IMG/VR virus record: IMGVR_UViG_3300027976_000079
Location: 1 to 41,434 of that record
DNA from: a virus
Length of the DNA: 41,434 nucleotides
Strand: one strand, 5' to 3'
A model generated the notes under the pieces. That model did no database searches and was not told where the DNA came from. It was given only the letters and a program-made list of their open reading frames with translations. The translations under genes were made by a program, and so were the position numbers. Positions 1 through 38,592 of this stretch are shown piece by piece (positions within the stretch are counted from its first letter, which is position 1; each line of letters begins with the position of its first letter).

Positions 1-288
1 GAAGAAAGAAAAGCAAATGGCGTCGGCGGAAGGCCCGCATCTAAGAAAAAAGTAATTAAGGAATCCGATTGGAAGGAATATTACGGTAGTTCTGAGAAGA
101 TGAAAACTCTTGTTAATGGTGGTGAACCAGCTGATTTCGATCGGACTATATTACAATTTGTATCAACTAAAAAGTTATTAACTTACTATGAAGCCGAGTT
201 GCTTTTTAGAAAGGATGTATTGAACGATGATACCTATATAAACGACAACATACTCACTAAATTCTATAGAAAAGATTTTAGTAATTAA
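1..288 (+). CDS. Partial gene, 3' end; phage protein of unknown function
   Basis: The reading frame is open from the first base to a TAA at 286-288, so this is the C-terminal 95 residues of a longer gene that begins outside the window. An internal ATG at 100 is probably not the start, because the frame continues upstream with charged, coding-like sequence. The tail (pattern YYGSSEKM, then RTILQFV, LTYYEAELLF, DVL, YINDNI) resembles a short domain common in T4-type phages that is often annotated loosely as a putative endonuclease. I recall the pattern but cannot confirm the family. It runs tail-to-tail into the minus-strand nuclease gene and overlaps its 3' end by 11 bp, so there is no room for a terminator between them. 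Confidence 0.7.
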   Translation, partial: EERKANGVGGRPASKKKVIKESDWKEYYGSSEKMKTLVNGGEPADFDRTILQFVSTKKLLTYYEAELLFRKDVLNDDTYINDNILTKFYRKDFSN

Positions 289-14052: not shown

Positions 14053-17000
14053 ATGAATAATTTTATCAGCGACATTACGCAAGGTGTGTCAAATTTAGTT
14101 GAATCTGTGATAACAGCCACAGAAAAGGCAACCGATTATATTGTAATTTATTCCGGGCGATTTCAGCCGTTTCATAAATCACATTATGAAACATATAAAA
14201 AACTAACAGCCAAATTCGGTAAGGATAAAGTTTTCATTGGTACGTCGAATAAAACAGATGCAAATTCGTCTCCATTTTCATTCAATGAAAAGAAGCGCAT
14301 TATGACAAAAATGTTCGGTATAAGTGCAAAGTATATCGTCCAGTTGAAAAACCCATATAGACCCGATGAAATCACTAGTAAATTCAATGATAAGACTACA
14401 GCCTATATAGCAGTCGTTGGAGAAAAAGATGCGGCAAGATTGACTGGCAAGTTTTTCAAAGTATATAAAGACGGCATGCAATTGAATCCAATGGTGGATA
14501 ATGGATATGTTTATATTGCTCCTCATATCACTAACGTATTCGCACTCCCAGGTGGAAAAAAAGATGTGACTGGAACAGTCGTTAGAAACGCTATTCGCAC
14601 TGGAACGGAAGATGAACAAATAGCGGTATTGAAAATGCTATATCCAAAAATAGACAAATCCATTTTCGATTTAATCATCAAAGGAATAGCAGAGTGCATC
14701 ACAGATGATGATATTGTACATTTTCTAGAATCAGTTGATATTGGTGAATTGCTTAAAGAATCAACGTCATCGGATTCCGCTGGAGCGACCCAATCCGTTG
14801 ATGATGGACCTAGATATCATTATCCATCACATACAACATATCAACGCGTCACTTCAAGAAGAGCCGCTAAGATAGGGTATACGGTATTAGATTATATCAT
14901 CAAGGGAGCAGGACCTCAAGGTGAAATGGCTCCTGATTATCCAGATGGGCCTGTGGATGCTATATCCTACTTACCAGCAGGAGTCGCGGGATTAAAAACA
15001 CCAATGAATCAACAGGATTTGATTGGGTCGGAAGGCTGGAGTAAATGGTTCGACCATGTTACTAGATCGGCATCTCTTGTTGGGTATGAATTAGTAAAGA
15101 CGAAGGAGGAAAGGCTTCGACAGGACAAAGAGCATAAACAATCCGCTATACAATCAAAGGCTGATAATAATAAACGATTCAATACAAACACAATGCCAGA
15201 GTCCACATTGGTTTTAATAAAAGCGGCATTAAACGAATACCAAGCAAAATCAGATATTTTAGAAATTGCATATGATATAAGTGATGAGCATAGAAACATA
15301 GTTGAACATCTAATCGATTTTACCTTTGAAGTATTAGGAATTACTCAATATCCAAATATTAGGCTAACAACGGAAAGGGAAGATATATCGACCACCGCGT
15401 ATTATAATATCGAATCACATGATATAAAAATATACACAAAAAATAGAGCGTTGGCAGATGTACTACGCTCTATTGTACATGAAATTGTACACCACCAGCA
15501 AAATCTAGAAGGTAGGTTAGTTAGAAACGAAGATTCAAAATGGGCAATTGGAGAAACTGATCCATGGGAAACAGAAGCTCATGCAATGGCTGGGCATATT
15601 ATAACCAAATTCAAACATATATCTGAAAAGAATATCTACTTGAATGAAGCAAGGACAAAGCAAGCAGTCGCTGGTGGGAAGGTTCAACGGTTTATAACTG
15701 GTCTTAATATTACACTCTTTGGAAAGAAATATAATGTAGTTGAGTTTGAACGACTATCCATCGATAATGGACAAAGGCTTGTTAGATTCAGAATCGATTC
15801 CCCAAGAGAAATAGCGGGTAAGGAAATATATGTATCATTCCAAGAGTTGCGGAGAGGTCGATTTATGGCAACTCCTATACCAAATGCGTTAGAAGAATTT
15901 ACAAAAAGTGGGACAGTTAAAAGTACAGAATCTGGCAACAAAACATTACATCAATTAAATGAAAACACCAACGGCAATTATGATTACTCATGCTTAATGG
16001 TGGTTCACAAACATATCCCAGCAACAGCACTACCTGTATTGGATCCTGCTGATATTTACGACGAAGTTGGATATGGAATAGAAGATGATCCACATATTAC
16101 AGTTTTATATGGAATACATCAAGAAATATCATTTGAACAAGTATTAGCGGCAATAGAACCAGTCGGTGAAATTAATGTGAAATTCACAGGTATTAGTATT
16201 TTTGAAAATGAAAAATACGATGTGCTGAAATATGATATAGAAAGCGAAGCGTTGCATACAATGAACGCAAAGCTAAGAAATTCAATACCATTTACGAATT
16301 CATATGATGAATATCATCCACATTCAACCATAGCATATTTGAAACCAGGAACGGGTAAAAAATACATCAGATTACTCGATGAGCCAATATCAACAATAGT
16401 AGATACATTATATTTCAGCACACCAGCTGGAAATAAATCGTTTCATCAATTAAATGAAAATCCAGATACAATCCATGCAGGGGGCTCAAATACTGCTGAT
16501 ATTGGCAGCCGAGATGCTAGGGCATTTGGTATGTTTAATGGTAAGGTATACATTGGCCAGCATCAATGGGAATATCATGATGATTTAGCTTTGTCATATC
16601 TTGGCAGAAAGTTAATCACTCAAGCACAATATGATAAATTACCAAAAAATAGATATATCTGGACATATCCTGGAAGATTATGGATTAATAAAAAACTAAT
16701 TTCATTTTGGAAATACCCGAAAACAAAAGCGGAATTCTTGATACTTTTGAAAAAAATAGAAAAGGCAGCCAAAATTAAAATAATTGGCTCTGGTTGGAAG
16801 GTTGAAGTATATCCAGGATCTGATGAAGTAAACAACTTGACGAATGGCGCTAAATTAATCAGTACGGATACATATAGGGGAAGTAAAGACGCTGCTGGAA
16901 TTAATACAGACCATGCCAAATCACCAATTGACAAGACAAAGAAAACTGTACCAAATAACATGGGCGCAAATAAATCTATTCCCGGAGCAAGAAAAGGCGA

Positions 17001-18870: not shown

Positions 18871-18885
18871 AAATTCAAATCATTC

Positions 18886-18895
18886 ATATTTATAG
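18886..18895 (+). promoter_or_regulatory. Late-promoter motif ATATTTATAG
   Basis: Nine bases of the recurring TATATTTATA motif plus the frequent following G, 21 bp before the ATG at 18917, in the 46-bp gap after the multidomain gene. It probably drives the small Zn-ribbon, membrane and terminase genes. Confidence 0.55.
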
Positions 18896-18916
18896 ATATA
18901 CAAAAACGGTTATACT

Positions 18917-19597
18917 ATGACACTAATTAGAGTTAAAGGCGGCACAGTTAATGAATCATTACGTAAACGACAGATGCATAAATCTAGACGTAAGATTATT
19001 GATGTTCTGAATAACGAATACAGAAAGGATACATTTGGAACGCATGTTGTTACTCGTGATGAACGAGAAGCTAAAGAATTAGAAGCAAAGAACCTTAAAG
19101 AAGAAAAATCAGAAATATTTAGGGTTAGTCACACGTGTCCAAAGTGTAATAGATTTTTCGGCAACAGATTAGATAAGAAGTTTTATTATAAAACTAACCA
19201 TTGTTTTGATTGCCAAGTTAAGTTTGAAACATCATTAAAGAGTAACGGAATATTTCTTCAATGGGAAAGAATGAAACTTCTGCAAAATGAATTATCGATA
19301 TTTGTCGATCATAAACAAAAATTTGAAGATGCCCTGCGAGAAATCAAACCATATTCAGAACTTATTACCGACGCCGGGTACATTAATAAATTTGAAATAA
19401 GTCTAGAACAATTCCAACAAATCAAATCGGACATCCAAGCGGATCTTGATTTTATAGAGGAAACCGTACCGATCATGGTAGACAAATTAGCGGAAATAAT
19501 TGAATCATTATTAGATAATCCTGTTTCTGGGTTGATTGCCGAGTATGATGTTATTTTTAGTAAATTATTTATTGGAATGGAAATGTCTGATGCTTAA
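18917..19597 (+). CDS. Zn-ribbon/coiled-coil protein upstream of terminase
   Basis: A 226-aa protein that I do not recognise. The N-terminal ~70 residues are strongly charged (RKRQMHKSRRKIIDVLNNEY). A four-cysteine zinc ribbon follows at about residues 74-100 (CPKC, then CFDC), and the remainder is predicted helical with coiled-coil character. Its place two genes before the large terminase is where many phages keep the small terminase (DNA recognition) subunit, and a basic N-terminus plus zinc ribbon could bind DNA. T4 gp16 has no such ribbon, so that role is only a guess. It overlaps the next gene by 8 bp. Confidence 0.6.
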   Translation: MTLIRVKGGTVNESLRKRQMHKSRRKIIDVLNNEYRKDTFGTHVVTRDEREAKELEAKNLKEEKSEIFRVSHTCPKCNRFFGNRLDKKFYYKTNHCFDCQVKFETSLKSNGIFLQWERMKLLQNELSIFVDHKQKFEDALREIKPYSELITDAGYINKFEISLEQFQQIKSDIQADLDFIEETVPIMVDKLAEIIESLLDNPVSGLIAEYDVIFSKLFIGMEMSDA

Positions 19598-20183
19598 AAA
19601 TATACGTGAAATATTAATACTGGTTCTGGTTGTCATTATAGCATATCAATTTATATTCCCATCCAAAGAAATAATAGAAAAGCCCGTAACAGAGACAGTA
19701 ATACAAACAGATACTACGTATGTGGAAGTAACTACAACCGAAACTGTATATTTACCTCGGTATATTACTAAAAATGACACGATTAGAATTCCAACCGTTG
19801 TCGATACACTTTCAATAATTCGTGACTACTTCACCGAATATACATACAACGATACATTAAAGGTTGAAACGTTCGGATATGGGTATTTGAAAGATACTAT
19901 ATTTATGAATAGAATAAAGTCAAGAACGGTATCGTGGGATTATAAAATTCCAGTTATTACAACTACAATAGAAACAACTATCACTTTACCACCCAGACGG
20001 GAATTTCAATTTTACGTAGGGGCTACCATCGGCGGAGACAAAACAACTATAAATTACTTTGGACCATCCATTGGATTCAAAACAAAATCAGACAAATTCT
20101 TTACAATCGGCGCCGGTATAGTTGGGACGGATAACATAGGAATGACTTTCTCCGCATATTATAGATTCAGACCCTTTAGATAA
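19590..20183 (+). CDS. Single-pass membrane protein with beta-rich C-terminal domain
   Basis: A 197-aa protein starting MLKNIREILILVLVVIIAYQ, a clear N-terminal membrane anchor with positive residues ahead of it. The remainder is predicted outside the cytoplasm: a Thr/Val-rich stalk (TETVIQTDTTYVEVTTTETV), then beta-strand repeats, and a C-terminal part (FQFYVGATIGG, GPSIGFKTKS, FFTIGAGIVG, FSAYYRF) with the alternating pattern and aromatic ending of outer-membrane beta strands. I prefer the ATG at 19590 to one at 19536, because the longer form has no coherent signal and lies inside the upstream gene. A spanin-like envelope-fusing role is possible but not shown. Its stop overlaps the terminase start (TAATG). 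Confidence 0.65.
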   Translation: MLKNIREILILVLVVIIAYQFIFPSKEIIEKPVTETVIQTDTTYVEVTTTETVYLPRYITKNDTIRIPTVVDTLSIIRDYFTEYTYNDTLKVETFGYGYLKDTIFMNRIKSRTVSWDYKIPVITTTIETTITLPPRREFQFYVGATIGGDKTTINYFGPSIGFKTKSDKFFTIGAGIVGTDNIGMTFSAYYRFRPFR

Positions 20184-21796
20184 TGGCAAAACAAGTAACT
20201 CAGGCTGAATTAATAAAAGAACGTATCACAGAAGAATATGTGAAGTGTAAGAAAAGTTGTTCGTACTTTCTTAACAAATATTGCTATATTCAACATCCGA
20301 AGCGTGGCAAAGTTAAATTCGATTTATACCCATTTCAAGAAAATTCACTTGATGCGATACAGAATAGCCCAAATGCAATTATTCTAAAATGCCGACAGAT
20401 GGGAATTTCAACTCTCATTGCAGGATACGCCCTATGGTTGATGCTATTCCATAATGATAAATCAATTCTTGTCCTTGCTATTAAACAAGAAACGGCAAAG
20501 AATATCATTAAAAAGGTTCGGTACATGAATTCATCTCTTCCGTCGTGGTTGAAGATGGCTACTCCGGAAGATAACAAATTATCATTAGCGTTTAGTAATG
20601 GTTCATCGATTAAAGCAACGACATCAAGCGGGGAAGCGGGTCGTTCGGAAGCACTTTCATTATTAATATTTGATGAAGCAGCGTTTATTGATGATATCGA
20701 ATCGATATGGGTAGCAGCTCTACCTACACTAGCACATGGTGGGCAATGCGTGGCGATTTCAACTCCAAACGGCGTCGGTAATTGGTTCCATAAGAAATAT
20801 ATGCAAGCCGAATCCGGAGAAGATACAAAATGGCTGTTTATGAAGCTCCACTGGACTCTTCATCCTGAATATAACCAGGAATGGAGAGATGGTATGGATA
20901 GGGAACTGGGAGCCAAGGAAGCGGCCCAGGAGTGTGATTGTCAATTTTCTAGTTCCGGAAATAGTGTAATTGAAATGGACTTGATCCAATTTTATAAAGA
21001 CACATATGTTAAGGAGCCGTTGGAAAAACGCGGTCTGGGCGGAAATGAATGGTTATGGGAATATCCTCCACTAGGACAAGGAAATCGAACGTATATTATA
21101 TCGGCAGATGTTGCTCGTGGAGATGGAGCGGATTTTTCAACGTATCATGTTATTGATATAGAATCATGTGTTCAGGTCGCGGAATATCGAGGACAAGTTG
21201 ACACCACTTCATTTGGTACAATGTTGGTACTTGCCGCGAAATCATGGAATAATGCTCTTCTTGTAGTTGAACGTGAAAATCAAGGATGGGCGGTGATACA
21301 GGTTATAATTGACCATCAATATCCGAATTTATTTTATATATCAAATGATTTAAAATATGTAGAAACTGAACGGATGATGACTAATAAGTACAACGCGCAG
21401 GATAGGGGTATGGTTCCAGGCTTTAGTACAAACTCAAAAACAAGACCATTAATTATTTCCAAATTAGACCTTTATATGAGAGAAAATTCTATAGAAATTC
21501 GTTCAAGTAGAACAATTGATGAATTGTTTACATTTGTATGGACGGCTGGTAGGGCCCAGGCAATGCGAAGTTATAATGATGATTTGATTATGGCTCTTTC
21601 AATCGCGCTATGGATTCGAGATACTGCGCTTAGATTACGACAAGAAGGAATAGATCTAACAAAGAAGATTTTAGATGGTATGTCACTTGGTGGAAATAGC
21701 CACAATGCAATTTATTCAAATAATACATTGGCTAGCGACCCATACAAAATGCAAACCGGAACAGGCGAAGAAGAAGATCTTCGATGGTTATTATAA
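20183..21796 (+). CDS. Terminase large subunit (gp17-like)
   Basis: A 537-aa packaging motor that cuts concatemeric DNA and pumps it through the portal using ATP. The ATPase half has a deviant Walker A CRQMGISTL (70-78), Walker B LLIFDEA (160-166) and a coupling motif AISTPNGVGN (191-200). The RNase-H-like nuclease half has the acidic residues D309 (ISADVARGDG), E363 (VVERENQG) and D466/D467 (SYNDDLIM). The length suits the family (T4 gp17 is 610 aa). The start ATG shares a base with the previous stop (TAATG). It is the last gene of a three-gene cluster. A late-promoter motif and the portal gene follow. A second, shorter ATPase-only relative is encoded at 35854. Confidence 0.95.
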   Translation: MAKQVTQAELIKERITEEYVKCKKSCSYFLNKYCYIQHPKRGKVKFDLYPFQENSLDAIQNSPNAIILKCRQMGISTLIAGYALWLMLFHNDKSILVLAIKQETAKNIIKKVRYMNSSLPSWLKMATPEDNKLSLAFSNGSSIKATTSSGEAGRSEALSLLIFDEAAFIDDIESIWVAALPTLAHGGQCVAISTPNGVGNWFHKKYMQAESGEDTKWLFMKLHWTLHPEYNQEWRDGMDRELGAKEAAQECDCQFSSSGNSVIEMDLIQFYKDTYVKEPLEKRGLGGNEWLWEYPPLGQGNRTYIISADVARGDGADFSTYHVIDIESCVQVAEYRGQVDTTSFGTMLVLAAKSWNNALLVVERENQGWAVIQVIIDHQYPNLFYISNDLKYVETERMMTNKYNAQDRGMVPGFSTNSKTRPLIISKLDLYMRENSIEIRSSRTIDELFTFVWTAGRAQAMRSYNDDLIMALSIALWIRDTALRLRQEGIDLTKKILDGMSLGGNSHNAIYSNNTLASDPYKMQTGTGEEEDLRWLL

Positions 21797-21801
21797 TGGC
21801 T

Positions 21802-21811
21802 TATATTTATA
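21802..21811 (+). promoter_or_regulatory. Late-promoter motif TATATTTATA upstream of portal
   Basis: An exact motif copy in the 63-bp gap after the terminase, 48 bp before the portal ATG, a longer leader than for the other copies. Confidence 0.6.
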
Positions 21812-21859: not shown

Positions 21860-24800
21860 ATGGCAAATACAGACTTCAGAACAAGAATTAAGCGCATTTT
21901 CGCATCGGGCACAATAGTCCGGGTTCTTGGTAAGAATAAGATAAGGGTTATGGATACAGATGAACGTCAATCGTATCCAAAGAATAAGTATAGAAACCGA
22001 CATGGGTATGGTAATCTCCAACGTGGAGCAGCATCAAATCAGAAAACTCAAAATTTAGCATATTTAACGAATAGGCGAGATTTGTTTAGAGATTACGAAT
22101 GTATGGCGGGAGAAACAATAATTCCTCTTCCAGATGGAAATAACAAAACCATAAAGGAATTAGCAGAATTATATCCAACACCTGCAGACAAGTTTTATGT
22201 GTATTCATATGACCACAAAAATGATAATATTCAACTAGGAATTGCGCATTCAGTCCGAAAAACAAAAACGGCTCAAACGTATAAAATAACATTTGATGAT
22301 GGATCTCATCTCATTGCGACGGACAACCATCCATTTTTAATGAGAAATGGAGAATATAAAAAAGTAAAGGATTTACTACCAGATGAATCGGTAATGCCAT
22401 TTTATCAAAAACGCTTTTTCAACCAACGATATAGATTTGTTTACGGATTTTCCGATAAATGGATATCTGAACATCGTTTAGTTGCGACCCAATTTGATAG
22501 ACAATTGAATGATAATGAAATAGTGCATCATTGTGATTTTAATAAGGAGAACAATCTTCCATCTAATTTAGAAATAATGGATGATTCGGAACACCGGGCA
22601 TATCATATGATGATAAATAATAAATACATTTGGTCTCCTGAAAACTATGACAAACAATGTAAAGCAATTTCCGTTGGTCTAAAAGCGGCAAATTTATCTT
22701 GGAATGGTAAACGGAAAGGGAAAAACAATCCGTTTTATGGTAAGACACATTCTAGTAATTCAAATCAAAAGCGATCTCGTTCATTGCTCGAATTTCATAG
22801 TGATATTAATAATAAATCAAAATGGATAGGAAACAATAACGGACGATATAGAGAAGATATTACATTTGATTCACTTGAAGAACTTTCATATGAATTATAT
22901 AAAAATAATAGTAAATTAACAAAATATGAATTAATTGAAGCCGCTGGTTGCAACGGCCGGTTGATGATGGCAAGAATAAGTGATGCCGGATACGATGATT
23001 GGTATTCATATAAAACATATATTGAAAATTCAATAAATCATAAGATAGTATCAATTGAATTACATGAAATTTTAGATGTATATGACATGACAGTTGATAA
23101 ATATCATAATTTCGCGACAACCGTTTGTTTTGTACATAACTCAATGGACAACGACGCCATAATAGCATCGGCGCTCGATATATACGCGGATGAGTGCCTT
23201 GCGGCTGAAACTAGAATTCCATTATTAAATGGAAATATAAAAACCATAAAAGAATTGTTTGATGAAAATGTCAGTAATTTTTGGGTGTATGGATTAAATG
23301 AAGATGGAAACATGGAGCCTGCACAGGCTCAACGTGTTATATATAAGGGAAAATCGCAGGTATATAAAATAATACTGGAAGATGGAACCGAAATTAAAGC
23401 AACAGGAACACATAAATGGGTTGATGGTGAGGATAGAACGCTTAAGAAAACATCAGAACTTAAAATAGGCGATGGAATTTACACACTGAATACAAAAATC
23501 AGCGATCGTAAATTGAAAGGATATGCTATGATAAAGCATAATGGAAAATTTGAATTCGTTCATAGAATTGTTTCTTGGGCAACTAAATCATTAGTTGAAA
23601 GTAGAAAAGAAAAATCACGAAAAGCAGTTATTCACCACGCGTCTTTTAATAAATTAAATAATGATCCAACTCAACTCGAGTGGTTAAACCCGAATGAGCA
23701 CTGGAAAGTTCATGCCAATTTCAATAAAAAAATATGGGCGAATGAAGAATTAAATCACATATATAAGGAAAAAACAAGAGCAGGTCATAAAAAATATTGG
23801 ACACCTGAAATTAGGAATAAAAAAGCGAAACAACAGCGAGAATTTATGTATGGATTCTCCGCTAATATGTCACATGATGAACGCCGCGATAAATATGGAA
23901 ACGCTGGGAGTCTAAATGGCATGTTTGGAAATGGAAAAAAACTAATAGGAAATAAAAATGGAAGATGGTTAGCTGATATTGATAGATTCGATTCAATCAA
24001 CATTGATACTATTATTGATATATTAGTAAAGTCTGAGTATACGTTGGGCGCGCAGTTGACCATGGCCGAAATATTAGAAAAAGCAGGATATACATTTAAT
24101 AGAACGGAACATCAGAAAATATCAAACGCAATATGTCAAATATATAATGTGAACAAAGTGTCACAATTTCCAAGAAAACATTATGGAATTAATAGTAAGA
24201 ATCTCCTACCAAAGCTGAAAAATGAAATATTAACATTTGATAAAAATCCAAAGAGAAATTATAAAACATTATGTGATCAAGTTGGGACAACGATTCCTAT
24301 AATGGATTCTGTTTTAAAAGAAGCAACATATAGAAACTTTTCAGATTTTGTTGATTCGACAAACCATCGGATAGTATCAATTGAAAAAATGAATGAATCA
24401 ATTGATGTGTATGATATACTTAACGCTGGAGAAAGCCACGTATACGCGATCGAAACAAACGATGGTAGTAAATTATTTACTCACAATTGCACTAAAAAGA
24501 ATGAATTTGGTGATATACTAAATATAACATCGTCCGATTCGGAAATTCAAGAAATACTACATAACTTATTCTATGATATTCTAAACATTGAATTTAATCT
24601 TTGGCCTTGGGTTCGTAGCGTCTGTAAATATGGTGATCTATTTTTAGGAATTCAAATAAAAGAAAAGGAAGGCATTCAGAACATTGTTCCACTATCGGCA
24701 TATGAAATAATCAGAGAGGAAGGATTTGATCCAGAACGTCCAGCCGAAGTTAGATTTGAATATGATGGTATTTATGGCAAACGTACATTTGATAATTATG

Positions 24801-25972
24801 AGGTAGCACATTTTAGACTTCTCAGCGATTCAAACTTCGTGCCATATGGCAAAAGTGTGATTGAAAACGCAAGAAGAACTTGGAAACAGGCAACACTGCT
24901 TGAAGATGCAATGTTGATCCATAGAATAATGAGGGCACCTGAGCGTAGAGTATTCAAATTGGATGTTGGTAATATTAATCCCGCAGATGTAGAAAGCTTT
25001 ATAAAGAAACAACAAGCCACTCTTAAAAAGATACCATATATCAATCCGGCAACAGGAGATTATAATCTAAAATATAATATCCAGAATCTAACAGAAGATT
25101 TTTTCCTACCAGTTCGTGGTAGTGACAGTGGTACTTCAATTGAAAATCTTCCAGGACTTGAATACCAAGCAATAGATGATTTGGAATTTGTACAAAAACG
25201 ACTATTTGCCGCGTTGAAAATACCAAGGGCATATCTTGGATATGAAGAGGACACCAGTGGCAAAGCAGTATTAGCACAAGAAGATTTCAGATTCGCTGGG
25301 ACAATTGGAAGAATTCAATCTATGATAGCATCCGAACTATATAAGATTGCGGCTATTCATTTATATACAATTGGAAAGACCGATGAATCACTTCTTGATT
25401 TTACGTTAACATTGGCAACGGCATCCACAGTATACGAACAGGAAAAAATCAGAATTTGGCAGGAAAAAATCCGAACTGCACAAGATGCTAAAGATAATAA
25501 AATGGTATCCGAGGATTGGATTTATGATAAAATTTACGGACTATCAGAAGATGAAATCAAAGAACAACGGGTAAAAGTCGCTGAAGATCGTATGAGGCAA
25601 TTTAGGTATACCCAAATCGAAGAAGAGGGAAATGACCCAGTCGATTCGGGACAAAACGTTCAAGGTGGGCAAGTTGTCGATCCGTTCGCCGACCAATCAG
25701 GATTCAAAGGAGAAGATACATCGGGCGCTGATGATTCAGATAATCCATCTTTAAAGAAAGGTGGAAGACCCAGAGAAAACCAAACGAAATACGGCACAGA
25801 TAAGCATTCACTTGGTAGAGATCCAACCGGAAATAAAGAAAACAGCCCATCCACATCTGCAAATGAAATGCTTCGAATGATACAGAATATGAAATCTAAA
25901 CGTGGGATGTTAGTTGAAAAGGAAGCATCTCGGCCCGCATCTATGATGGATGAGGAAAACATAATCGAATAA
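21860..25972 (+). CDS. Portal vertex protein (gp20-like) interrupted by two inteins
   Basis: A 1370-codon frame that would splice to a ~592-aa portal (T4 gp20 is 524 aa). Extein 1 (1-80) ends NRRDLFRDYE; extein 2 (428-445) is SMDNDAIIASALDIYADE; extein 3 (877-1370) begins CTKKNEFGDIL. Joined, they give the conserved portal stretch around DPIISSALDIYADE-TTKNE seen in T4-type portals. Downstream the portal core shows WPWVRSVCKYGDLFLGI, PYGKSVIENARRTWKQ, RAPERRVFKLDVGN and a QEDFRFAGTIGRIQ segment. The portal forms the dodecameric ring through which DNA enters and leaves the head. The C-terminal ~110 residues are polar and low-complexity. Splicing must succeed twice for a working virion. No Shine-Dalgarno is obvious at the start. 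Confidence 0.93.
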   Translation: MANTDFRTRIKRIFASGTIVRVLGKNKIRVMDTDERQSYPKNKYRNRHGYGNLQRGAASNQKTQNLAYLTNRRDLFRDYECMAGETIIPLPDGNNKTIKELAELYPTPADKFYVYSYDHKNDNIQLGIAHSVRKTKTAQTYKITFDDGSHLIATDNHPFLMRNGEYKKVKDLLPDESVMPFYQKRFFNQRYRFVYGFSDKWISEHRLVATQFDRQLNDNEIVHHCDFNKENNLPSNLEIMDDSEHRAYHMMINNKYIWSPENYDKQCKAISVGLKAANLSWNGKRKGKNNPFYGKTHSSNSNQKRSRSLLEFHSDINNKSKWIGNNNGRYREDITFDSLEELSYELYKNNSKLTKYELIEAAGCNGRLMMARISDAGYDDWYSYKTYIENSINHKIVSIELHEILDVYDMTVDKYHNFATTVCFVHNSMDNDAIIASALDIYADECLAAETRIPLLNGNIKTIKELFDENVSNFWVYGLNEDGNMEPAQAQRVIYKGKSQVYKIILEDGTEIKATGTHKWVDGEDRTLKKTSELKIGDGIYTLNTKISDRKLKGYAMIKHNGKFEFVHRIVSWATKSLVESRKEKSRKAVIHHASFNKLNNDPTQLEWLNPNEHWKVHANFNKKIWANEELNHIYKEKTRAGHKKYWTPEIRNKKAKQQREFMYGFSANMSHDERRDKYGNAGSLNGMFGNGKKLIGNKNGRWLADIDRFDSINIDTIIDILVKSEYTLGAQLTMAEILEKAGYTFNRTEHQKISNAICQIYNVNKVSQFPRKHYGINSKNLLPKLKNEILTFDKNPKRNYKTLCDQVGTTIPIMDSVLKEATYRNFSDFVDSTNHRIVSIEKMNESIDVYDILNAGESHVYAIETNDGSKLFTHNCTKKNEFGDILNITSSDSEIQEILHNLFYDILNIEFNLWPWVRSVCKYGDLFLGIQIKEKEGIQNIVPLSAYEIIREEGFDPERPAEVRFEYDGIYGKRTFDNYEVAHFRLLSDSNFVPYGKSVIENARRTWKQATLLEDAMLIHRIMRAPERRVFKLDVGNINPADVESFIKKQQATLKKIPYINPATGDYNLKYNIQNLTEDFFLPVRGSDSGTSIENLPGLEYQAIDDLEFVQKRLFAALKIPRAYLGYEEDTSGKAVLAQEDFRFAGTIGRIQSMIASELYKIAAIHLYTIGKTDESLLDFTLTLATASTVYEQEKIRIWQEKIRTAQDAKDNKMVSEDWIYDKIYGLSEDEIKEQRVKVAEDRMRQFRYTQIEEEGNDPVDSGQNVQGGQVVDPFADQSGFKGEDTSGADDSDNPSLKKGGRPRENQTKYGTDKHSLGRDPTGNKENSPSTSANEMLRMIQNMKSKRGMLVEKEASRPASMMDEENIIE
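22100..23140 (+). mobile_element. Intein 1 in portal gene, with HNH homing endonuclease
   Basis: 347 residues (portal 81-427). The N-terminal splicing block starts Cys81 (CMAGETIIPLPDG); block B has TDNHPFL with the Thr-x-x-His; the C-terminal block has VYDMTVDKYHNF and ends VCFVHN followed by Ser, so all splice-junction residues are present. The central endonuclease has an HNH pattern HHCDFNKENNLPSNLE then EHRAYH at 223-249, and a NUMOD3-like NNPFYGKTH at 289-297. It should be able both to splice and to home. Confidence 0.93.
23195..24487 (+). mobile_element. Intein 2 in portal gene, with HNH-like endonuclease
   Basis: 431 residues (portal 446-876). It begins Cys446 (CLAAETRIPLLNG), has block B IKATGTHKWV and ends KLFTHN with Cys as the next extein residue, so the splice residues are intact. 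The central domain has HHASFNKLNNDPTQLE then EHWKVH (592-617); the Asp of the usual HHxDxNK is Ser here. A MFGNGKKLIGNKNGRW stretch follows. It is clearly diverged from intein 1, not a recent copy of it. Confidence 0.92.
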
Positions 25973-29871: not shown

Positions 29872-30045
29872 ATGAAAATAACTAAAAAACATATAGTTCA
29901 ACTAGTAAAAGAAGAACTCACTGGAAAATCACATCTGCTAGAAGAAATGGCTGAAAACGATATTCAGAAAATTAGAAATATTATCAGACGGGAAATAGCA
30001 GCTGTATTTTTCGAACTTTTCAAAAAACGATCCGTGTGGATATAA
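29872..30045 (+). CDS. 57-aa helical protein, possible prohead core component
   Basis: A short frame starting MKITKKHIVQLVKEELTGKS and ending FFELFKKRSVWI. It starts 7 bp after the previous stop and ends 23 bp before the protease start, in a tightly packed operon, which supports it as a real gene. It contains LLEEMAEND and a basic C-terminal helix IRNIIRREIAAVFF. T4 has the small core proteins gp67 and gp68 at this position, and a 57-aa helical product would fit that role, but sequence homology is not visible to me. Confidence 0.65.
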   Translation: MKITKKHIVQLVKEELTGKSHLLEEMAENDIQKIRNIIRREIAAVFFELFKKRSVWI

Positions 30046-30068: not shown

Positions 30069-30686
30069 ATGAAAGAATTATTAATTGACCACATACCTTT
30101 TAAATTTTCTGCTAGACAAATAACAGAATCCACCAAAACAGGTGGACCTTTAGTGGTATCTGGAATTTTACAAAGAGCAGAAGCAAAGAATCAAAATGGT
30201 AGAGTGTATCCTAGAGAAATTCTCGAACGAGAAGTAAACAAATACAATGATAGATTTGTAAAGAATAGAAATGCTCTCGGTGAACTTGATCACCCAGAAT
30301 CAGCAGTAGTTAATTTAAAGAACGTATCTCACAACATCAGAGAAGTTTATTTCGAAGGAAATGAAGTGAAAGGTGTCATTGAAGTATTATCAACACCAAG
30401 TGGTAACATCCTAAAGGAACTGTTCAAAAACAACATTACACTTGGTATAAGTTCCAGAGGACTTGGGTCTGTTAAGGAAATGCAAGAGGGTACGGTTGAA
30501 GTACAGGATGATTTTGAATTGGTGGCTTGGGACTTCGTATCGAACCCATCAACTCAAGGTGCATTTATGGTTCCAATGAACGAATCAATAAATGGAATTA
30601 ATCAAATGATGCTTGATGAATATATGTGCAATGAATGGTGCAAAACACAGGATATAATGAGACGCATCCTAGAACAATTACAGTAA
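30069..30686 (+). CDS. Prohead core protease (gp21-like)
   Basis: A 205-aa serine protease that matures the phage head by cutting scaffold, core and capsid proteins. Typical marks are RAEAKNQNGRVYPREIL (36-52), the catalytic His in LGELDHPE (H75), the Ser in LGISSRG (S128/S129) and a later Asp in LVAWDFVSNPS (D155). It is similar in size to T4 gp21 (212 aa). The C-terminal stretch after VPMNESIN (about residue 168) may be removed by self-cleavage at MNE. It sits between core-like proteins and the scaffold, as in T4. Its cleavage rule in T4, (L/I)-x-E, is what makes the LNE/INE-rich proteins in this window interesting. Confidence 0.9.
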   Translation: MKELLIDHIPFKFSARQITESTKTGGPLVVSGILQRAEAKNQNGRVYPREILEREVNKYNDRFVKNRNALGELDHPESAVVNLKNVSHNIREVYFEGNEVKGVIEVLSTPSGNILKELFKNNITLGISSRGLGSVKEMQEGTVEVQDDFELVAWDFVSNPSTQGAFMVPMNESINGINQMMLDEYMCNEWCKTQDIMRRILEQLQ

Positions 30687-30711: not shown

Positions 30712-30927
30712 ATGAGCAATAGAATTGGAAGTGGAATTGGAGTAGTGGTAAAGGGCGGGAATGTAGAGCGAGCACTGCAAATCCTTAAAAAGAAAATTAA
30801 AGATGAAAAGGTTCTTATAGAATATAAAGAACGAATGCAATTCACAAAACCATCAGAGATTAAGAGAAAAGCTCGCAGATTACGTAAATTACGGTCTAAA
30901 AAATACGAAACCGCCGTTAAATATTAA
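30712..30927 (+). CDS. Phage-encoded ribosomal protein bS21 homologue
   Basis: A 71-aa, highly basic protein. The pattern VVVKGGNVERALQILKKKI, then FTKPSEIKRKARRLRKLR, is that of bacterial bS21: an N-terminal beta strand, a first helix with ALxxxKKK, the (F/Y)xKPS motif, then a second Arg/Lys helix. bS21 sits on the small subunit near the anti-Shine-Dalgarno end of 16S rRNA and helps initiation. Phage copies are known, mostly in aquatic phages, and probably replace the host protein on ribosomes. Here it is placed inside the head operon, 25 bp after the protease, with AAGG about 10 bases before the start. It is expected to act late, unless an unseen internal promoter exists. Confidence 0.88.
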   Translation: MSNRIGSGIGVVVKGGNVERALQILKKKIKDEKVLIEYKERMQFTKPSEIKRKARRLRKLRSKKYETAVKY

Positions 30928-30989
30928 TAAATGTTGAATATTTTAAGTGTTTTTAAATAATTGATATACTTATATAAACAACGAATACC

Positions 30990-30999
30990 TATTTTTATA
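30990..30999 (+). promoter_or_regulatory. Weak late-promoter-like motif TATTTTTATA
   Basis: One mismatch from TATATTTATA, 63 bp before the scaffold ATG. A second near-copy, TATACTTATA, is at 30965-30974. It could give the scaffold and capsid genes extra transcription. Confidence 0.4.
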
Positions 31000-31062
31000 G
31001 TGTAACGCATATCTAATTTTATTGAAGTTCACGAATAACTTCACTTGGTACAGAGAACAAAA

Positions 31063-32196
31063 ATGAACAAACTTGCACAAGATGCAATCGCTGATGCGAA
31101 AGCCTTAAAAGAAATGGCTGTAGCAAACGCTCAACTGCAATTGGAAGAAAGTTTTCGCAGCCGAATTGAAGATCTCATTAATGAAAAAATCGATTCTAGA
31201 ATCAACGAAGATGACTACGACGATGGTGATGCCGACGATGAAGATGATGAAGATGAAGAAGAAGTAATCGAATCAAAATCAAAAAGGAAATCCCGCCGTG
31301 TTAAGGAAAACGACGAAGACGAAGAAGAAGATGAAGATGAAGAAGAATATTCGGTAGGCGAATCAAAAAATAAAAGAAAAAAGAAATCATCCGTCAAAGA
31401 AGAGGACAATAAAACCGACTCAGATGATGGCGAAGATCTCGATGATGAAGAATCAGAAGAGAACCTTGATGAAATGGATGATGATGAAGAAGATGAAGAT
31501 GAAGAAGATGAAGATACAACCGGTCTTGATGAAATTATCGCTGAACTTGAAGCTGAAATCGGTGTAACCGACGATGACGACGATGACGACGATGAAGAAG
31601 ATGAAGCCCCAGTAGACGAATCAAAAAAGAAAACAAGAAAAAAATCATCGGTCAAAGAAGAAGATGAAGATGAAGTAGATGATGAAGATGAAGATGATGA
31701 AGAATCATTTGATTTGGATGAATTACTTTCCTCTATCGACGCAATGGATTTCGATCACAATAGAGCAGCAAACGAAGGTACTGAAATTTCTAGTCTCAGA
31801 GCAAAAAATGTATCGCTCAAAACGGAAAATTCCGAATTGAAAAAAGCGGTAACATTAATGGCTGGAACAATGAAAGAAGTTAATCTTCTGAACGCAAAGC
31901 TTCTATTTGCAAACAGACTATTCCGTCAACATTCAATGACAAATGAGCAGAAAGTAAAAGTAATTGAAACACTTGATAGAACGAACTCAGTTCGTGAAGT
32001 TAAGCTAGTTTTCGCTACTCTTGCCGAATCTCTTAAATTCAAGTCAGACACATCGAAAAAGAGGAAACAATCTTCTATTATAGAAGGTCTATCTTCGAAG
32101 CCTATAGGTGGCACTGCGCCAGACAAAAAGGCAATCATATCAGAAGCCAAAGACGGACAAGATCGCTTGAAGTTCTTGGCAGGAATCATTAAGTAA
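31063..32196 (+). CDS. Prohead core scaffolding protein (gp22-like)
   Basis: A 377-aa, extremely acidic protein that forms the internal core on which the head shell assembles. Residues ~50-230 are Asp/Glu tracts broken by basic islands (KSKRKSRRVKE; KNKRKKKSSVKEED; KKKTRKKSSVKEED). The C-terminal third is the recognisable gp22-type part: TMKEVNLLNAKLLFANRLFR and then VIETLDRTNSVREVKLVFAT. In T4 this protein is chopped to small peptides by gp21; INE sites near residues 39-49 (LINEKI, RINEDD) fit that. I use the ATG at 31063; a TTG 18 bases upstream would add six unlikely residues. It precedes the capsid gene by 16 bp, in the T4 order 21-22-23. Confidence 0.88.
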   Translation: MNKLAQDAIADAKALKEMAVANAQLQLEESFRSRIEDLINEKIDSRINEDDYDDGDADDEDDEDEEEVIESKSKRKSRRVKENDEDEEEDEDEEEYSVGESKNKRKKKSSVKEEDNKTDSDDGEDLDDEESEENLDEMDDDEEDEDEEDEDTTGLDEIIAELEAEIGVTDDDDDDDDEEDEAPVDESKKKTRKKSSVKEEDEDEVDDEDEDDEESFDLDELLSSIDAMDFDHNRAANEGTEISSLRAKNVSLKTENSELKKAVTLMAGTMKEVNLLNAKLLFANRLFRQHSMTNEQKVKVIETLDRTNSVREVKLVFATLAESLKFKSDTSKKRKQSSIIEGLSSKPIGGTAPDKKAIISEAKDGQDRLKFLAGIIK

Positions 32197-32212: not shown

Positions 32213-33838
32213 ATGAAAAATATTTCTAGTCTTCTTGAAGGCGCTGGAAACCACCAAAATGTTCTATTGGAACAGACACGCGGACTCCGCGCGAAGTGGG
32301 AAAACACAGGCCTCCTAGAAGGAATTGACAAACCAACCGATAAGGCTGGAATGTCCGTTCTCCTTGAGAACCAAGCACGCCAGTTGATCGATGAAGCATC
32401 GGCAGCCGGCACAACTGGTAATTCAGAAGAATGGGCCGGCGTAGCTCTACCGCTTGTACGTAGGGTGTTTGGTGAAATCGCTGCAAAGGAATTTGTATCG
32501 GTTCAACCAATGAATCTCCCATCTGGGTTAGTATTCTACCTTGACTTTACATATGGTACGAATCAGCCTGGTAAAAATACGGACGGTACATCACCTTTCC
32601 AAAATAGTTCGCTATTTGGTGGAACGGGCGCTGCAGAAGAACGTACACAAACGGATACTGGTGGACTTTACGGCGCAGGTCGTTTTGGTTATACCATTAA
32701 TGAAGTAGCTACTCCATTAATAGCATCTCCTACAAACGCTACGGCGTCTTGGAGTGATCTTAATATGAGCTCAGTTTATTCGGCATCTGTATCGGCACAG
32801 CAAGTTAAAAAAGTGACTATTGCTAAAACTAACTTTACTCGTGCTGATTATGAAGGCGTACGTGCATTCCAAATCTCAGGATCTGGACAGTACACTGCTT
32901 CTGCATACATCCCAGAGTTTACAAAGACTGATGCAACTAATGTGTATTTCTTCGTTTCGGCATCCGCTGCTTCGACTATCACAGGAGCAGTTGTTAATTA
33001 TCACCGTCAACCTACCGATTCAACTCGTGGTGACTTTGAAGATTCCTCAAACGGTACTGGAACAATTACCGATTTGGATATCCCACAAGTTAACCTTGAA
33101 ATGAAGAGTGAGCCAATTGTGGCAAAAACTCGTAAGTTGAAAGCCGTTTGGACTCCGGAGCTTGCTCAGGACTTGAACGCATATCATTCAGTTGATGCAG
33201 AAGCAGAATTGACTTCAATGCTTAGTGAGTACATCTCGCTTGAAATTGATTTGGAAATTCTGGACATGCTTATCAGCGGTGCTCAAACAGTTGATTACTG
33301 GTCAGCTAAGGTTGGGTATGAATGGAATGGTCTCACTAAACTATTCGAAGCAGATGCTAATTCAGCATCGGCATCGGCATATCAGAAAAATGCATGGTTC
33401 CAAACACTTGGAATTAAACTTAACAAAGTTTCGAACAAAATTCACAAATTAACAATGCGTGGTGGTGCGAACTTCTTGGTTGCTGGACCTGATATCTGTA
33501 CGATTCTTGAATCAATGCCTGGATTTAACGTCCAAGCAGGAAAAGACGCGATGCAGTTTGCCGCCGGTGTAACCGCTGTTGGGGCGCTTGCTAACCGTTA
33601 TACGGTTTACAAGAATCCTTATATGAACGAAAATGTACTCCTTATGGGATACAAAGGAACTAGTTTCTTAGAAACAGGAGCCGTATATGCACCGTATGTA
33701 CCGCTTATCCTTACTCCGTTGGTATACGACCCGACAAACTTTACACCACGTAGAGGTGTCATGACCAGATACGCTAAGTTGATGGTTCGTCCAGAATTCT
33801 ATGGAAAAGTGTATGTTGGTGATTTGGACAAAGTCTAA
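32213..33838 (+). CDS. Major capsid protein (gp23-like)
   Basis: A 541-aa shell protein; T4 gp23 is 521 aa. The best match to T4 is VQPMNLPSGLVFYLDFTYG near residue 100, where T4 has QPMNSPTGQVF. The late stretch APYVPLILTPLVYDP followed by FTPRRGVMTRY corresponds to the T4 APYVPLTPLRG region. The N-terminal ~61 residues look like a removable propeptide with repeated LLE motifs; LIDE followed by Ala (Glu61) matches the prohead protease rule and lies near the T4 cut at Glu65. The codons seem richer in GC-ending forms than in neighbouring genes, as expected for a highly expressed gene. A strong terminator follows. Confidence 0.93.
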   Translation: MKNISSLLEGAGNHQNVLLEQTRGLRAKWENTGLLEGIDKPTDKAGMSVLLENQARQLIDEASAAGTTGNSEEWAGVALPLVRRVFGEIAAKEFVSVQPMNLPSGLVFYLDFTYGTNQPGKNTDGTSPFQNSSLFGGTGAAEERTQTDTGGLYGAGRFGYTINEVATPLIASPTNATASWSDLNMSSVYSASVSAQQVKKVTIAKTNFTRADYEGVRAFQISGSGQYTASAYIPEFTKTDATNVYFFVSASAASTITGAVVNYHRQPTDSTRGDFEDSSNGTGTITDLDIPQVNLEMKSEPIVAKTRKLKAVWTPELAQDLNAYHSVDAEAELTSMLSEYISLEIDLEILDMLISGAQTVDYWSAKVGYEWNGLTKLFEADANSASASAYQKNAWFQTLGIKLNKVSNKIHKLTMRGGANFLVAGPDICTILESMPGFNVQAGKDAMQFAAGVTAVGALANRYTVYKNPYMNENVLLMGYKGTSFLETGAVYAPYVPLILTPLVYDPTNFTPRRGVMTRYAKLMVRPEFYGKVYVGDLDKV

Positions 33839-33877: not shown

Positions 33878-33911
33878 AAAGAGGGATGTTTCGGCATCCC
33901 TCTTTTTTTGT
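33878..33911 (+). terminator. Strong intrinsic terminator after the capsid gene
   Basis: An 11-bp stem (33878-33888 with 33895-33905) around a TTTCGG loop runs straight into a run of T. It closes the head operon. Confidence 0.92.
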
Positions 33912-33975: not shown

Positions 33976-35647
33976 ATGGATAGTAAGAGAAAAAAATATA
34001 ATAAGTCGGTTAAATTGAATTGCAAAATATGCGGTAAGGTATGTAGAAGCACAGGACTGCCAACTCATATAAAATATAAGCATGATATGCCGCCCGACGA
34101 ATACGCTAAGCTATATGGAGAATTTAGACAAAATAAACTAAACACCCGAAGTAAACGCACAGTTTCTAAGATAGCATGTAAAATATGCGCCCTACAATAT
34201 TCTATGGTTGGTATTTCAAATCATCTAAGAGATACTCATTCAATGACAACCGATGAATACGTCGCATCATATGGGGAATTTAGACCAATTAAACTGGAAA
34301 AGATATCACGACTTGAAGCAAGTAACGTTCAATGTGAAATATGCAAAAAACCAATGATATCTGAACGTTCCCTAACTTCTCATGTTAGAAAAGAACATTC
34401 ATTGAAAAAAATACAATATGTGACGAAATATATTTTCAATGATGAAATGCAATCATGCAAATGTGGATGCGGACAGACAGTACATATATTTGAACATTAT
34501 CCATATCGGACTGAATACATATCAGGTCATAATTCAAAGGGAGAAAACAATCCAAATTTTGGAAATATTAGCACTCATATAACAAAAAAGAATATGAGAG
34601 ACGCTAAATTTCCAAATTTAGTAGCTAGATTATTAGATAGAAACCTGAAACCATTATTTACAGTAGATGAATACCAGGGGATAGACCGTAAGTACATATA
34701 TGAATTTGAATGCACAATATGCAATTCCACATTTTTTAATGATTTGAGACGAAGTAGGATTCCATCGTGTAAGGATTGTTATAATAGGGGAATGTCTACA
34801 TATCATTTTGATTTATTTGAATATTTAAAATCTATATATGATGGTGAAATTATAAACAATACAAGGAACATTATACCGAGTTCAAAAGAAATTGACATAT
34901 ATACCAGAAAAGAAGTTGGCAATTGAAATAGATGGAATATATTGGCATTCTGAACTTAACGGAAAGGGTAGTTCGTACCATTTAAATAAAACAAAAGAAT
35001 GCGAAGAACTCGGCATTCAGCTTATTCATATTTTTGAAGATGAAATAATACATAATAAAGATACAGTATATTCAGCAATAGCGGCGAAGTTGGGATTGAT
35101 CTCCAATAAAATAGGCGCCAGAAAATGTCAAATTCAAAAACTAAATGTAGATACTGAGCGTGATTTTATAAATAAATACCATTTGATGAAATATACACCA
35201 TCAAATGTTGCATATGGATTATATTATGAAGATGAATTACAAATGGTATGTACATTTGGTAAATCTAGATTCACTTCGGATGAGTGGGAGATTATACGAA
35301 TATGTACAAAGCACAATATAATAGTACAGGGTGGAATTAGTAAGCTTATAACATTTTTCAAGGAAAATAATAAAATAACAAATTTAATTTCATATGCGGA
35401 CAGGCGATGGTGTAATATTAAAAACAACGCATATGTTGCATCTGGAATGAAACTGATAAACATATCCAAACCTGGATATTGGTATCTTGATTTTTCGGCA
35501 ATAAAACGAAAACATAGATATAATTTCACTAAAAGAAAAATAATAGAAGAGCTTGACGGAGATCCTGAACTATCGGAATGGGAAAATATGATTGATATGG
35601 GCCATGATAGAATTTGGGACTGTGGTCAATTAAAGTTTTCAATATAA
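33976..35647 (+). pseudogene. Homing endonuclease (zinc fingers plus EDxHD/VSR-like nuclease), frameshifted
   Basis: The first frame (33976-34926) encodes three C2H2-like fingers spaced by DEYxxxYGEFR (CKICGKVC...HIKYKH; CKICALQY...HLRDTH; CEICKKPM...HVRKEH) and a fourth Cys pair CTICNSTF. It ends in SSKEIDIYTRKEVGN-stop. The second frame continues the same protein as YIPEKKLAIEIDGIYWHSE and IQLIHIFEDEI, the nuclease core, then GARKCQIQKL, GLYYEDELQMVCTFGK and SYADRRW. Homologues I recall are one chain reading EIDIYIPEKK; losing one TA pair from the TA run at 34897-34903 explains the break exactly. It is a free-standing homing gene placed after the capsid terminator. It could be dead, rescued by ribosomal slippage, or a sequencing error. 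An apparent TTG start at 34892 is an artefact of the shift. Confidence 0.85.
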
Positions 35648-35656
35648 AAGTTAATA

Positions 35657-35857
35657 ATGAATATATCAAAAACATATAACAAATGTGATTCATGTGGAAA
35701 CGATTGCGACATGTTAGACATCGATAAAGATCAACAATGCTGGGGACAAGTAATCGCAACCGACGAAGTACCAGTGGATGATGATTGGTGGTGGATACAT
35801 TCATGTGAAGGACATGATAGCCATCGTTACATTCCAGAAAAAGAAGATAAAAAATGA
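35657..35857 (+). CDS. 66-aa Cys-rich small protein, unknown
   Basis: A small acidic protein, MNISKTYNKCDSCGNDCDML, with a CxxCxxxC cluster, a further Cys in QQCWGQV, then DDDWWWIHSCEGHDSH. The Cys/His set could bind one zinc ion. It starts 9 bp after the endonuclease frame and its stop overlaps the ATG of the ATPase gene (ATGA), so it is coupled to that gene. No function is recognised. Confidence 0.65.
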   Translation: MNISKTYNKCDSCGNDCDMLDIDKDQQCWGQVIATDEVPVDDDWWWIHSCEGHDSHRYIPEKEDKK

Positions 35858-36687
35858 AACGACCTTTCAATTTTGACAAATGGGAAGATGGAGTTTGGTA
35901 TTATCCATATGTCCCTCTCATTATTACACCACTACCAACCGACGTGAGCTCTTTAGAAGAATACAACAAGTGCAAAGATTCACCATCTTATTTTATACGA
36001 ACATACTGCAGTGTGTATTGTAATTCCATTCTTGCTCTATTCGATGTATATGATTATCAAGAAGATCTCGTTGATTATGAGTTCGCAAATAATAATTGGA
36101 ATATCATTCTTAAACCAAGAGGAATAGGATTGACTTCTATTAAAGCGGCATATGCTCTACATTCCATACTTTTCAATCATGATTATGGTGTGATGATTCT
36201 TACACATCATCCAACGATCGCGCGCGAGATAATGAGCACAATTCAGACTATGTATTGGAATTTACCAGATAGATGGCTTAAACTAGCAAACCGGGAAGAT
36301 AATCGCAGAATTGAATTGAAAAATGGATCATACATATCAACGATGGTTCTCACCGATACACCCGGTAAGGGTGAATCACTATCAATGGTAATGGTTGATG
36401 ATGTGGGGCATGATAGATACTTCGAACAATATTTCCCAATATTCCAAGTGCTCTTAAAACGAGATGCTAAATTCATAATTTCAGGATCAGCAATCGGCAA
36501 TGATAGAAGTTGGTTTGCTAGAAAATGGAAAAGCGCTGTACTTGGTGAAAATGAATTCAATCCAATCAAATTACATTGGTCACAGAATCCGACGAATACT
36601 GTGAAATGGAAACATGAATCTATTAAACAAATGGGTAAGGTAACATGGATGCAAGAAATGGAATGTGAATTTTTTAAAGAAGATTAA
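35854..36687 (+). CDS. Stand-alone terminase-type ATPase domain (no nuclease)
   Basis: A 277-aa relative of the ATPase half of the large terminase. It aligns by eye with terminase residues ~28-254: KPRGIGLTSIKAAYAL (87-102) for the deviant Walker A CRQMGISTLIAGYAL, EDNRRIELKNGSYI for EDNKLSLAFSNGSSI, VMVDDVG (179-185) for LIFDEAA with Asp in place of the catalytic Glu, FIISGSAIGN for VAISTPNGVGN, and WMQEMECEF for AAQECDCQF. It stops exactly where the nuclease half would begin. The changes in the Walker B Glu suggest weak or no ATPase activity. The first 35 residues contain PYVPLIITPL, oddly like the capsid protein's PYVPLILTPL. The role is unknown; it may regulate packaging or be a decayed paralogue. 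Confidence 0.8.
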   Translation: MKRPFNFDKWEDGVWYYPYVPLIITPLPTDVSSLEEYNKCKDSPSYFIRTYCSVYCNSILALFDVYDYQEDLVDYEFANNNWNIILKPRGIGLTSIKAAYALHSILFNHDYGVMILTHHPTIAREIMSTIQTMYWNLPDRWLKLANREDNRRIELKNGSYISTMVLTDTPGKGESLSMVMVDDVGHDRYFEQYFPIFQVLLKRDAKFIISGSAIGNDRSWFARKWKSAVLGENEFNPIKLHWSQNPTNTVKWKHESIKQMGKVTWMQEMECEFFKED

Positions 36688-37755: not shown

Positions 37756-38592
37756 ATGGATATGATTAGCACAGCAAACCCGACAGCATACCTTTCCAAA
37801 CATGATCTTATGGAAAGATGCCCGGTTATATTTGAAACATCACCCTCCAATCCGGATTTATCCAAACATTACGTCCACGTCAATACTGAAACTATCATTG
37901 ATGATATGGCACAGCTTGGTTGGAAGCCCGTTGCTGCTGTGATGAGAAACCGGACGAAAAAGGATACTATCTTTTCCCGCCATATGGTTTCATTTCAAAA
38001 TGAAAATATCTTCATTGATGGAGATGAAAAATCATTTCCCCGGATTCTTCTTACCAATTCGCATGATGGTAAAACTTCATTTCAATTCCACGTCGGCATT
38101 TGGAGACTTGTATGTTCGAACGGTTTGGTAATTGCAACTGAAACATTCAGTCATTTCAAAATCCGCCACCAAGGATACACATTCGATGAACTTCGTGGTG
38201 TAGTTTCCGACGCTGTGGCCGGCTTACCTGAACGGGTAACGGTAATGAATGAAATGGTCAATAGAACATTGACAGAAGATGAAAAGAGCGAACTAGCAGT
38301 CAATGCTCTTCTTCTAAGAATGGGTATTGACCCTAACGGAGAATCAGATGAACGTGCTCAAATTGACAAATTCACAGTAGACCAGATTCTTAAACCACTC
38401 CGCAACGCAGATGAAGGTGACAACCTTTGGAAAGTGTTCAATGTGGTTCAGGAGAAAATGATTCGTGGTGGATTTGAATCTTCCGTAACGACCGGTAAGA
38501 AAACATACCGTAAAGTACGACCAATCACAAACTTTGTTCGTGATTTGGAACTTAATCAGCAACTATTTCGATTGGCAACCGATATGGTATAG
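37756..38592 (+). CDS. DUF932 family protein
   Basis: A 278-aa protein of the phage/plasmid DUF932 group. The family marks are the N-terminal substrate-like region, RHMVSFQN and PRILLTNSHDGKTSFQFHVG (about 93-112), then WRLVCSNGLVI, FKIRHQGYTFDELR and a C-terminal TTGKKTYRKVRPITNFVRDL. The function of the family is not known; members are common on plasmids and phages and are often expressed early. Here it has a host-type promoter and is followed by a palindrome and a terminator, so it is its own transcription unit, separate from the late structural genes on both sides. The codons look slightly richer in GC than in the neighbouring small genes. Confidence 0.85.
   Translation: MDMISTANPTAYLSKHDLMERCPVIFETSPSNPDLSKHYVHVNTETIIDDMAQLGWKPVAAVMRNRTKKDTIFSRHMVSFQNENIFIDGDEKSFPRILLTNSHDGKTSFQFHVGIWRLVCSNGLVIATETFSHFKIRHQGYTFDELRGVVSDAVAGLPERVTVMNEMVNRTLTEDEKSELAVNALLLRMGIDPNGESDERAQIDKFTVDQILKPLRNADEGDNLWKVFNVVQEKMIRGGFESSVTTGKKTYRKVRPITNFVRDLELNQQLFRLATDMV

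Follow-up and report, generated by a model that had tools for sequence, protein, structure and literature searches.

Genes for the ribosomal protein bS21 are known from phage head regions, where late expression has been reported (Chen 2022, PMC9723584); in hundreds of phages a protease or major capsid protein (MCP) gene lies within ten genes of bS21, and the phage protein is co-expressed late with structural genes (PMC9723584). bS21 is exchangeable and required for initiation (PMC6375957), and the bS21 of pelagiphage HTVC008M enters E. coli 70S ribosomes (Mizuno 2019, PMC6375957), whose in vitro translation of GFP then drops to ~5% of normal (PMC6375957). In F. johnsoniae, Tyr54 of bS21 helps hide the anti-Shine-Dalgarno (anti-SD) sequence (PMC9976891), and Y54A substitution or C-terminal truncation raised translation of a strong-SD message 3- to 5-fold on F. 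johnsoniae ribosomes (PMC9976891). Here we describe a bS21 gene, the only copy in a linear IMG/VR record of 41,434 bases (the window), and the structured RNA that follows it. Late head-region phage bS21 is already described, and in this respect the window is a further case of a published idea.

The bS21 gene and its head-gene neighbourhood

The window contains a T4-type head module in which the large terminase subunit (TerL), portal, protease, scaffold and MCP genes follow one another as in T4 and gp21-type cleavage sites are present (LLEG at residues 7 and 34 of the MCP), and bS21 lies within a few genes of the protease, MCP, portal and TerL genes (Table 1). A preliminary description had placed a bS21 homologue between the prohead protease and the scaffold, and this was borne out, with coordinates and naming correct. 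The translated ORF, 71 aa followed by a stop, encodes a genuine bS21: it matched PF01165 (Ribosomal_S21; 41.5 bits, E 1.1e-10, profile positions 2-51 of 55) and the equivalog TIGR00030 (S21p; 39.5 bits, positions 2-57 of 58) across the full domain and over the curated cut-offs of 27 and 28.95 bits, respectively, as well as PHROG 21469 ('ribosomal protein S21'), and it gave direct but weak matches to solved bS21 chains. Since the near-copy contig L002 (99-100% identical) also carries the gene, and since comparison with contig L020 yields a bS21 dN/dS of ~0.12 (NG86; dS near saturation), the gene is not a chance ORF; it is under purifying selection. Between the window and L020 the bS21 proteins are 64% identical, the proteases 89% and the MCPs 90%.

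Table 1. Features of the bS21 locus and the surrounding head genes in the window
Feature	Coordinates	Strand	Basis
Terminase large subunit	20183..21796	+	phrog_2, E 5.8e-44; 50-52% identity to Mel-JY01 and immuto
T4-type portal ORF with intein splicing and HNH domains	21860..25972	+	PF07230, E 3e-58; PF14890, E 1.8e-32; PF13392
57-aa ORF with amphipathic N-terminus MKITKKHIVQLVKEEL	29872..30045	+	Sequence; comparison with ORFs of relatives
T4-type prohead protease (gp21-like; head maturation protease)	30069..30686	+	phrog_207, E 4.5e-55
bS21 (rpsU-like) gene, 71 aa	30712..30927	+	PF01165 and TIGR00030 over curated cut-offs; conserved slot
Promoter-like site ATACTTATATAAA before scaffold leader	30966..30978	+	Pattern ATAYNTATATAMA, enriched and mostly intergenic
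Two-hairpin RNA leader of scaffold-MCP transcript	30982..31046	+	Covariation in 26 sequences; model 37.6 bits, E 0.0076 (window in training set)
Scaffold-like acidic protein (gp22 position)	31063..32196	+	Between protease and MCP; homologues in same place in relatives
Major capsid protein (gp23-like; major head protein)	32213..33838	+	phrog_138, E 2.2e-75
Terminator-like hairpin behind MCP, 12-bp stem then T run	33878..33905	+	Strong hairpin, predicted

The scaffold-like ORF, for which Pfam and PHROG searches gave no family match, was named from position and composition, and its start is more likely the ATG at 31063 than the TTG at 31045. The 57-aa ORF ahead of the protease is a possible internal head protein that resembles other small ORFs in the same slot of relatives. 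The portal ORF (1370 aa) carries intein splicing domains in two stretches, HNH and NUMOD3, and its gp20 match is confined to residues 890-1241, so that one or two inteins would interrupt the portal.

Several other genes of the window were recorded. Directly 3' of the MCP gene, two endonuclease-like ORFs (33976-35647; zinc-finger/NUMOD3, and the C-terminal part of the phrog_3339 homing endonuclease) adjoin a 277-aa ORF (35854-36687). This ORF encodes a partial paralogue of the terminase ATPase, with 31% identity to the TerL of the window, and its N-terminal piece resembles the C-terminal region of the MCP (YYPYVPLIITPL vs YAPYVPLILTPL, E 5e-5); also found in L002, it looks like a chimera. A 1605-aa protein (14053-18870) combines an N-terminus resembling a cytidylyltransferase with a 2'-5' RNA ligase domain, the latter also matching anti-CBASS Acb1 weakly (21.2 bits, under the cut-off of 27). 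A single protein of 1057 aa (278-3451) fuses metallophosphoesterase (SbcD-like) and SbcC-like parts. Homologues (38-40%) of the DUF932 protein at 37756-38592 lie close to bS21 in four viral contigs (L013, L014, L015 and L016), near which no capsid module was found.

Relatives were gathered through bS21, MCP and protease searches, and their genes were then mapped. On the same strand and in the same slot, directly before the scaffold leader described below, bS21 was found in 16 IMG/VR contigs (the window, L002, L020, L021, L022, L023, L075, L076, L077, L078, L080, L081, L083, L084, L087 and L088), which span several diverged capsid groups (window/L002, L020/L074, L075, L021, L022, L023 and the L076-L088 group, the last including the head-slot bS21 of the 237-kb record L077), and the same arrangement is present in the 484-kb phage LR756508. 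The gene lies on the structural-gene strand in the window and all relatives found. In L022, as in the L076-L088 group, extra small ORFs stand between protease and bS21, which makes the scaffold leader, and not the protease, the stable neighbour of bS21. Gene mapping found no bS21 in the slot of many relatives that share this capsid module, and a PF01165 search of 20 larger relative records found none in 13, records that may be fragments. A clean comparison is offered by close relatives that have this capsid module and leader in common but differ in whether they carry bS21. In the 237-kb relative, a tmRNA gene adjoins a cluster of ~20 tRNA genes (L267:14503-14875, 15054-19845).

A two-hairpin RNA leader before the scaffold gene

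The scaffold leader was previously uncatalogued and is a more original result than the bS21 gene. It consists of two hairpins (30986-31004 and 31023-31043), and in 26 aligned sequences, with 96.7% of cells paired, compensatory changes on both sides were seen at 14/14 pairs. The covariation score was 0.925, compared to 0.286 in shuffles (0/500) and a maximum of 0.146 when the structure was slid, the latter control leaning in favour of the structure because it was proposed from the same 26 sequences. Compensatory changes in such numbers have few other plausible explanations. A covariance model detected the leader in 61 of 79 loci, once per locus and just upstream of the scaffold gene, and picked out a single credible copy each in the 237-kb record and in the first 100 kb of the cultivated Microcystis phage Mel-JY01. 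The leader was also located at L173:7630-7705 and L274:6141-6214. Two genomes outside the training set also carried it, namely Flavobacterium phage vB_FspM_immuto (E 1.9e-4) and LR756508 (E 2.4e-4). L020, L075 and L022 score barely or not at all with this model; a comparable fold can be recognised there on visual inspection. Tests of the head regions of RB69 and Rhodothermus phage RM378, and of more distant protease relatives, gave no leader. Rfam (15) covariance searches gave no match at the window leader (best E anywhere in the window, 0.18) and none at E<=0.5 at six representative leader loci, and no leader of this kind was found described in the open-access literature. An annotated ORF of immuto, immuto26A_203 (L173:7605-7697), overlaps the leader and is probably not a real gene.

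Because the leader stands at the inferred 5' end of its transcript and ends ~15-30 bases before the start codon, its position suggests a role in message stabilisation or in translational control of scaffold and capsid. A use as a tag for bS21 ribosomes was considered and rejected, since the leader is present without bS21 and in a single copy per genome searched; found in immuto and other phages irrespective of whether they carry bS21, it is not a bS21 device. The leader is a specific candidate for the control of scaffold and capsid production, testable in the cultivated immuto.

Probable transcription units, Shine-Dalgarno use and a proposed role of bS21

The window has 11 matches to the pattern ATAYNTATATAMA, compared to 4.3 expected (0/100 shuffles as high), and 10 of the 11 fall in intergenic DNA, which makes up 8% of the window. 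Among the sites are 230, 4457, 4546, 10156, 21803, 30966 and 36994, and matches lie 49, 57, 97 and 30 bases upstream of the genes at 10205, 21860, 31063 and 37024, respectively. The pattern is likely a phage promoter motif, distinct from the T4 late consensus. A test of the T4 late promoter sequence TATAAATA showed no enrichment in the window (159 vs 146 expected), and it was dropped. The 25-base gap before bS21 holds no such site. Since a promoter-like site and the leader follow bS21, the nearest site upstream is the one at 21803 before the portal gene, and a terminator-like hairpin stands after the MCP gene, bS21 is probably the last gene of a portal-protease unit, co-transcribed with portal and protease and not with scaffold and MCP, which would form a separate unit with its own promoter-like site, leader and terminator. 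In L021 a hairpin and T run lie between bS21 and the promoter-like site. The earlier placement of bS21 inside the head operon thus has to be amended: the gene lies among head genes but apparently outside the capsid transcript. Such separate units fit the report of Chen et al. that the bS21 region of their phages is not transcribed as one operon (PMC9723584).

SD core tetramers (AGGA/GGAG/GAGG) precede 4 of 30 window genes compared to 1.7 expected, and weak trimers (AGG/GGA/GAG) precede 13 of 30 compared to 6.5 ± 1.8 expected (0/500 shuffles), with GAG located ~8-10 bases before the start in protease, scaffold and MCP alike. The suggestion that many genes lack a good SD thus holds for 26 of 30 genes by core tetramers, but it is tempered by the enrichment of weak trimers, and by these counts anti-SD pairing in the window genes appears weakened, not abandoned. 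In the 237-kb relative the SD signal is almost nil, with a strong A at -11.

The account that we favour, at somewhat better than even confidence, is that the bS21 is functional, is made late with the portal-protease genes, joins the host 30S subunit and shifts initiation to weak-SD, A-rich late messages. Judged from gene order and the promoter-like sites, the protein would be produced late alongside the portal-protease genes; as in the pelagiphage experiment, it would enter host 30S subunits, either as a competitor of their loosely bound bS21 or in its place, and would there touch the 16S 3' end; by analogy with Flavobacterium bS21 biology, initiation would then shift toward weakly SD-marked, A-rich late phage messages. 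The capsid transcript proper would start downstream, with its own structured leader and no need for the phage bS21. Beyond the protein family, slot, strand, conservation and purifying selection established above, it is the late production with portal and protease that derives from the window itself, the remaining steps being carried over from PMC6375957 and PMC9723584. Late action via ribosome exchange would fit the location and the data from other phages (PMC9723584, PMC6375957). Counted in favour of this account were the curated family matches, the slot in 16 contigs and LR756508, the RpsU of Mel-JY01 and the dN/dS of ~0.12; counted against it were the ~5% translation in E. coli, which could equally mean shut-off or incompatibility (PMC6375957), the position of pelagiphage bS21 near replication genes, and the lack of a detectable bS21 in the records, possibly fragments, of most relatives that share the capsid module and leader.

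Other roles would account for parts of the same evidence. The phage protein might merely be a supply that keeps 30S subunits complete as host rpsU expression collapses, with mRNA choice unchanged, a reading we consider unlikely but the most credible of those set against ours: an exchangeable protein needed for initiation (PMC6375957), placed late with structural genes and held under purifying selection, speaks for it, but the C-termini of head-slot bS21s are diverged and their Tyr54 position is non-aromatic, whereas pure replacement might track one host type. That the protein instead poisons initiation late, on host messages or generally, could be read from the pelagiphage-bS21 ribosomes (PMC6375957), but the ~5% GFP was measured in a foreign host and the phage itself requires massive translation at the same time, so we hold such a shut-off to be distinctly improbable. 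Packaging, by which bS21 would be an internal head protein, injected and active from the start of infection, was raised as a possibility by Chen 2022 (PMC9723584), and in relatives bS21 does have small ORFs with amphipathic N-termini around it in the stretch from protease to scaffold; the bS21 N-terminus, however, is unlike amphipathic leader peptides, and the argument is further weakened because the gp21-type cleavage motif [LI]xE[AGS], present in MCP and scaffold, occurs in 0/15 head-slot bS21s, leaving this very improbable. The least probable is a passenger gene without a strong role, for which the many relatives without bS21 might speak, but which accords poorly with purifying selection and with the retention of one slot in diverged capsid lineages whose genomes range from ~190 to 484 kb.

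The residue at the Tyr54 position is Leu60 in the window bS21 and R, K, Q, V or A in head-slot relatives, and no head-slot bS21 found here has an aromatic residue there. Since Arg occupies this position in 26 of 40 sampled Bacteroidota bS21s, a non-aromatic residue cannot yet be read as function, nor does it exclude Bacteroidota hosts. We regard as quite improbable a late translation switch for capsid production in which a bS21 without the aromatic latch residue would release the anti-SD in a host that conceals it with its own bS21, acting together with the weak GAG-type SD sites of the head genes and the structured scaffold leader. Comparison with bS21s of candidate hosts, proposed earlier as a route to the host, failed: beyond its own capsid lineage the nearest bS21s were phage copies, at ~50% identity or less, and 37 of 69 inner branches of the bS21 tree were open, so host assignment from bS21 was dropped, the tree not identifying the host. 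A single clade for all head-slot bS21s was neither shown nor rejected (p-AU 0.37). A tblastn search of named phages with the window bS21 gave no match; a hand-typed pelagiphage-like query matched known phage bS21s.

Comparison with described phage bS21 systems

The bS21 of pelagiphage HTVC008M lies near sliding clamp and CobS genes, in contrast to the head genes of the window, and that of pelagiphage Mosig is likewise near replication genes, which indicates that only some lineages have phage bS21 in the head region. As in the window, bS21 in the Bacteroidetes phages of Chen et al. (PMC9723584) has terminase, portal, protease and MCP genes around it and, as also seems to hold here, is not in one operon with the MCP gene. 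In those phages, however, late expression is reported, whereas here the timing would follow from gene order and promoter-like sites; their bS21 is on the reverse strand, whereas ours lies on the structural-gene strand and immediately precedes the scaffold leader; and they always have an aromatic residue at the Tyr54 position, where the window has Leu60. Immuto shares the head gene order and the scaffold leader, the latter recognised with this phage held out of the model, and its MCP is 52% identical to that of the window, but its head slot holds an unrelated 75-aa ORF and no bS21. The cultivated Mel-JY01 (PP395634) has an annotated RpsU on the same strand between protease and scaffold, the same leader, and MCP and TerL proteins 53% and 52% identical to those of the window; it differs in a very diverged bS21 sequence, in two ORFs between RpsU and the leader, and in clear SD use, with SD cores in 36% of genes (first 100 kb). 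The window gene adds a T4-like lineage, with genomes of ~190 to 484 kb and bS21 on the coding strand, to those with a head-region, presumably late phage bS21.
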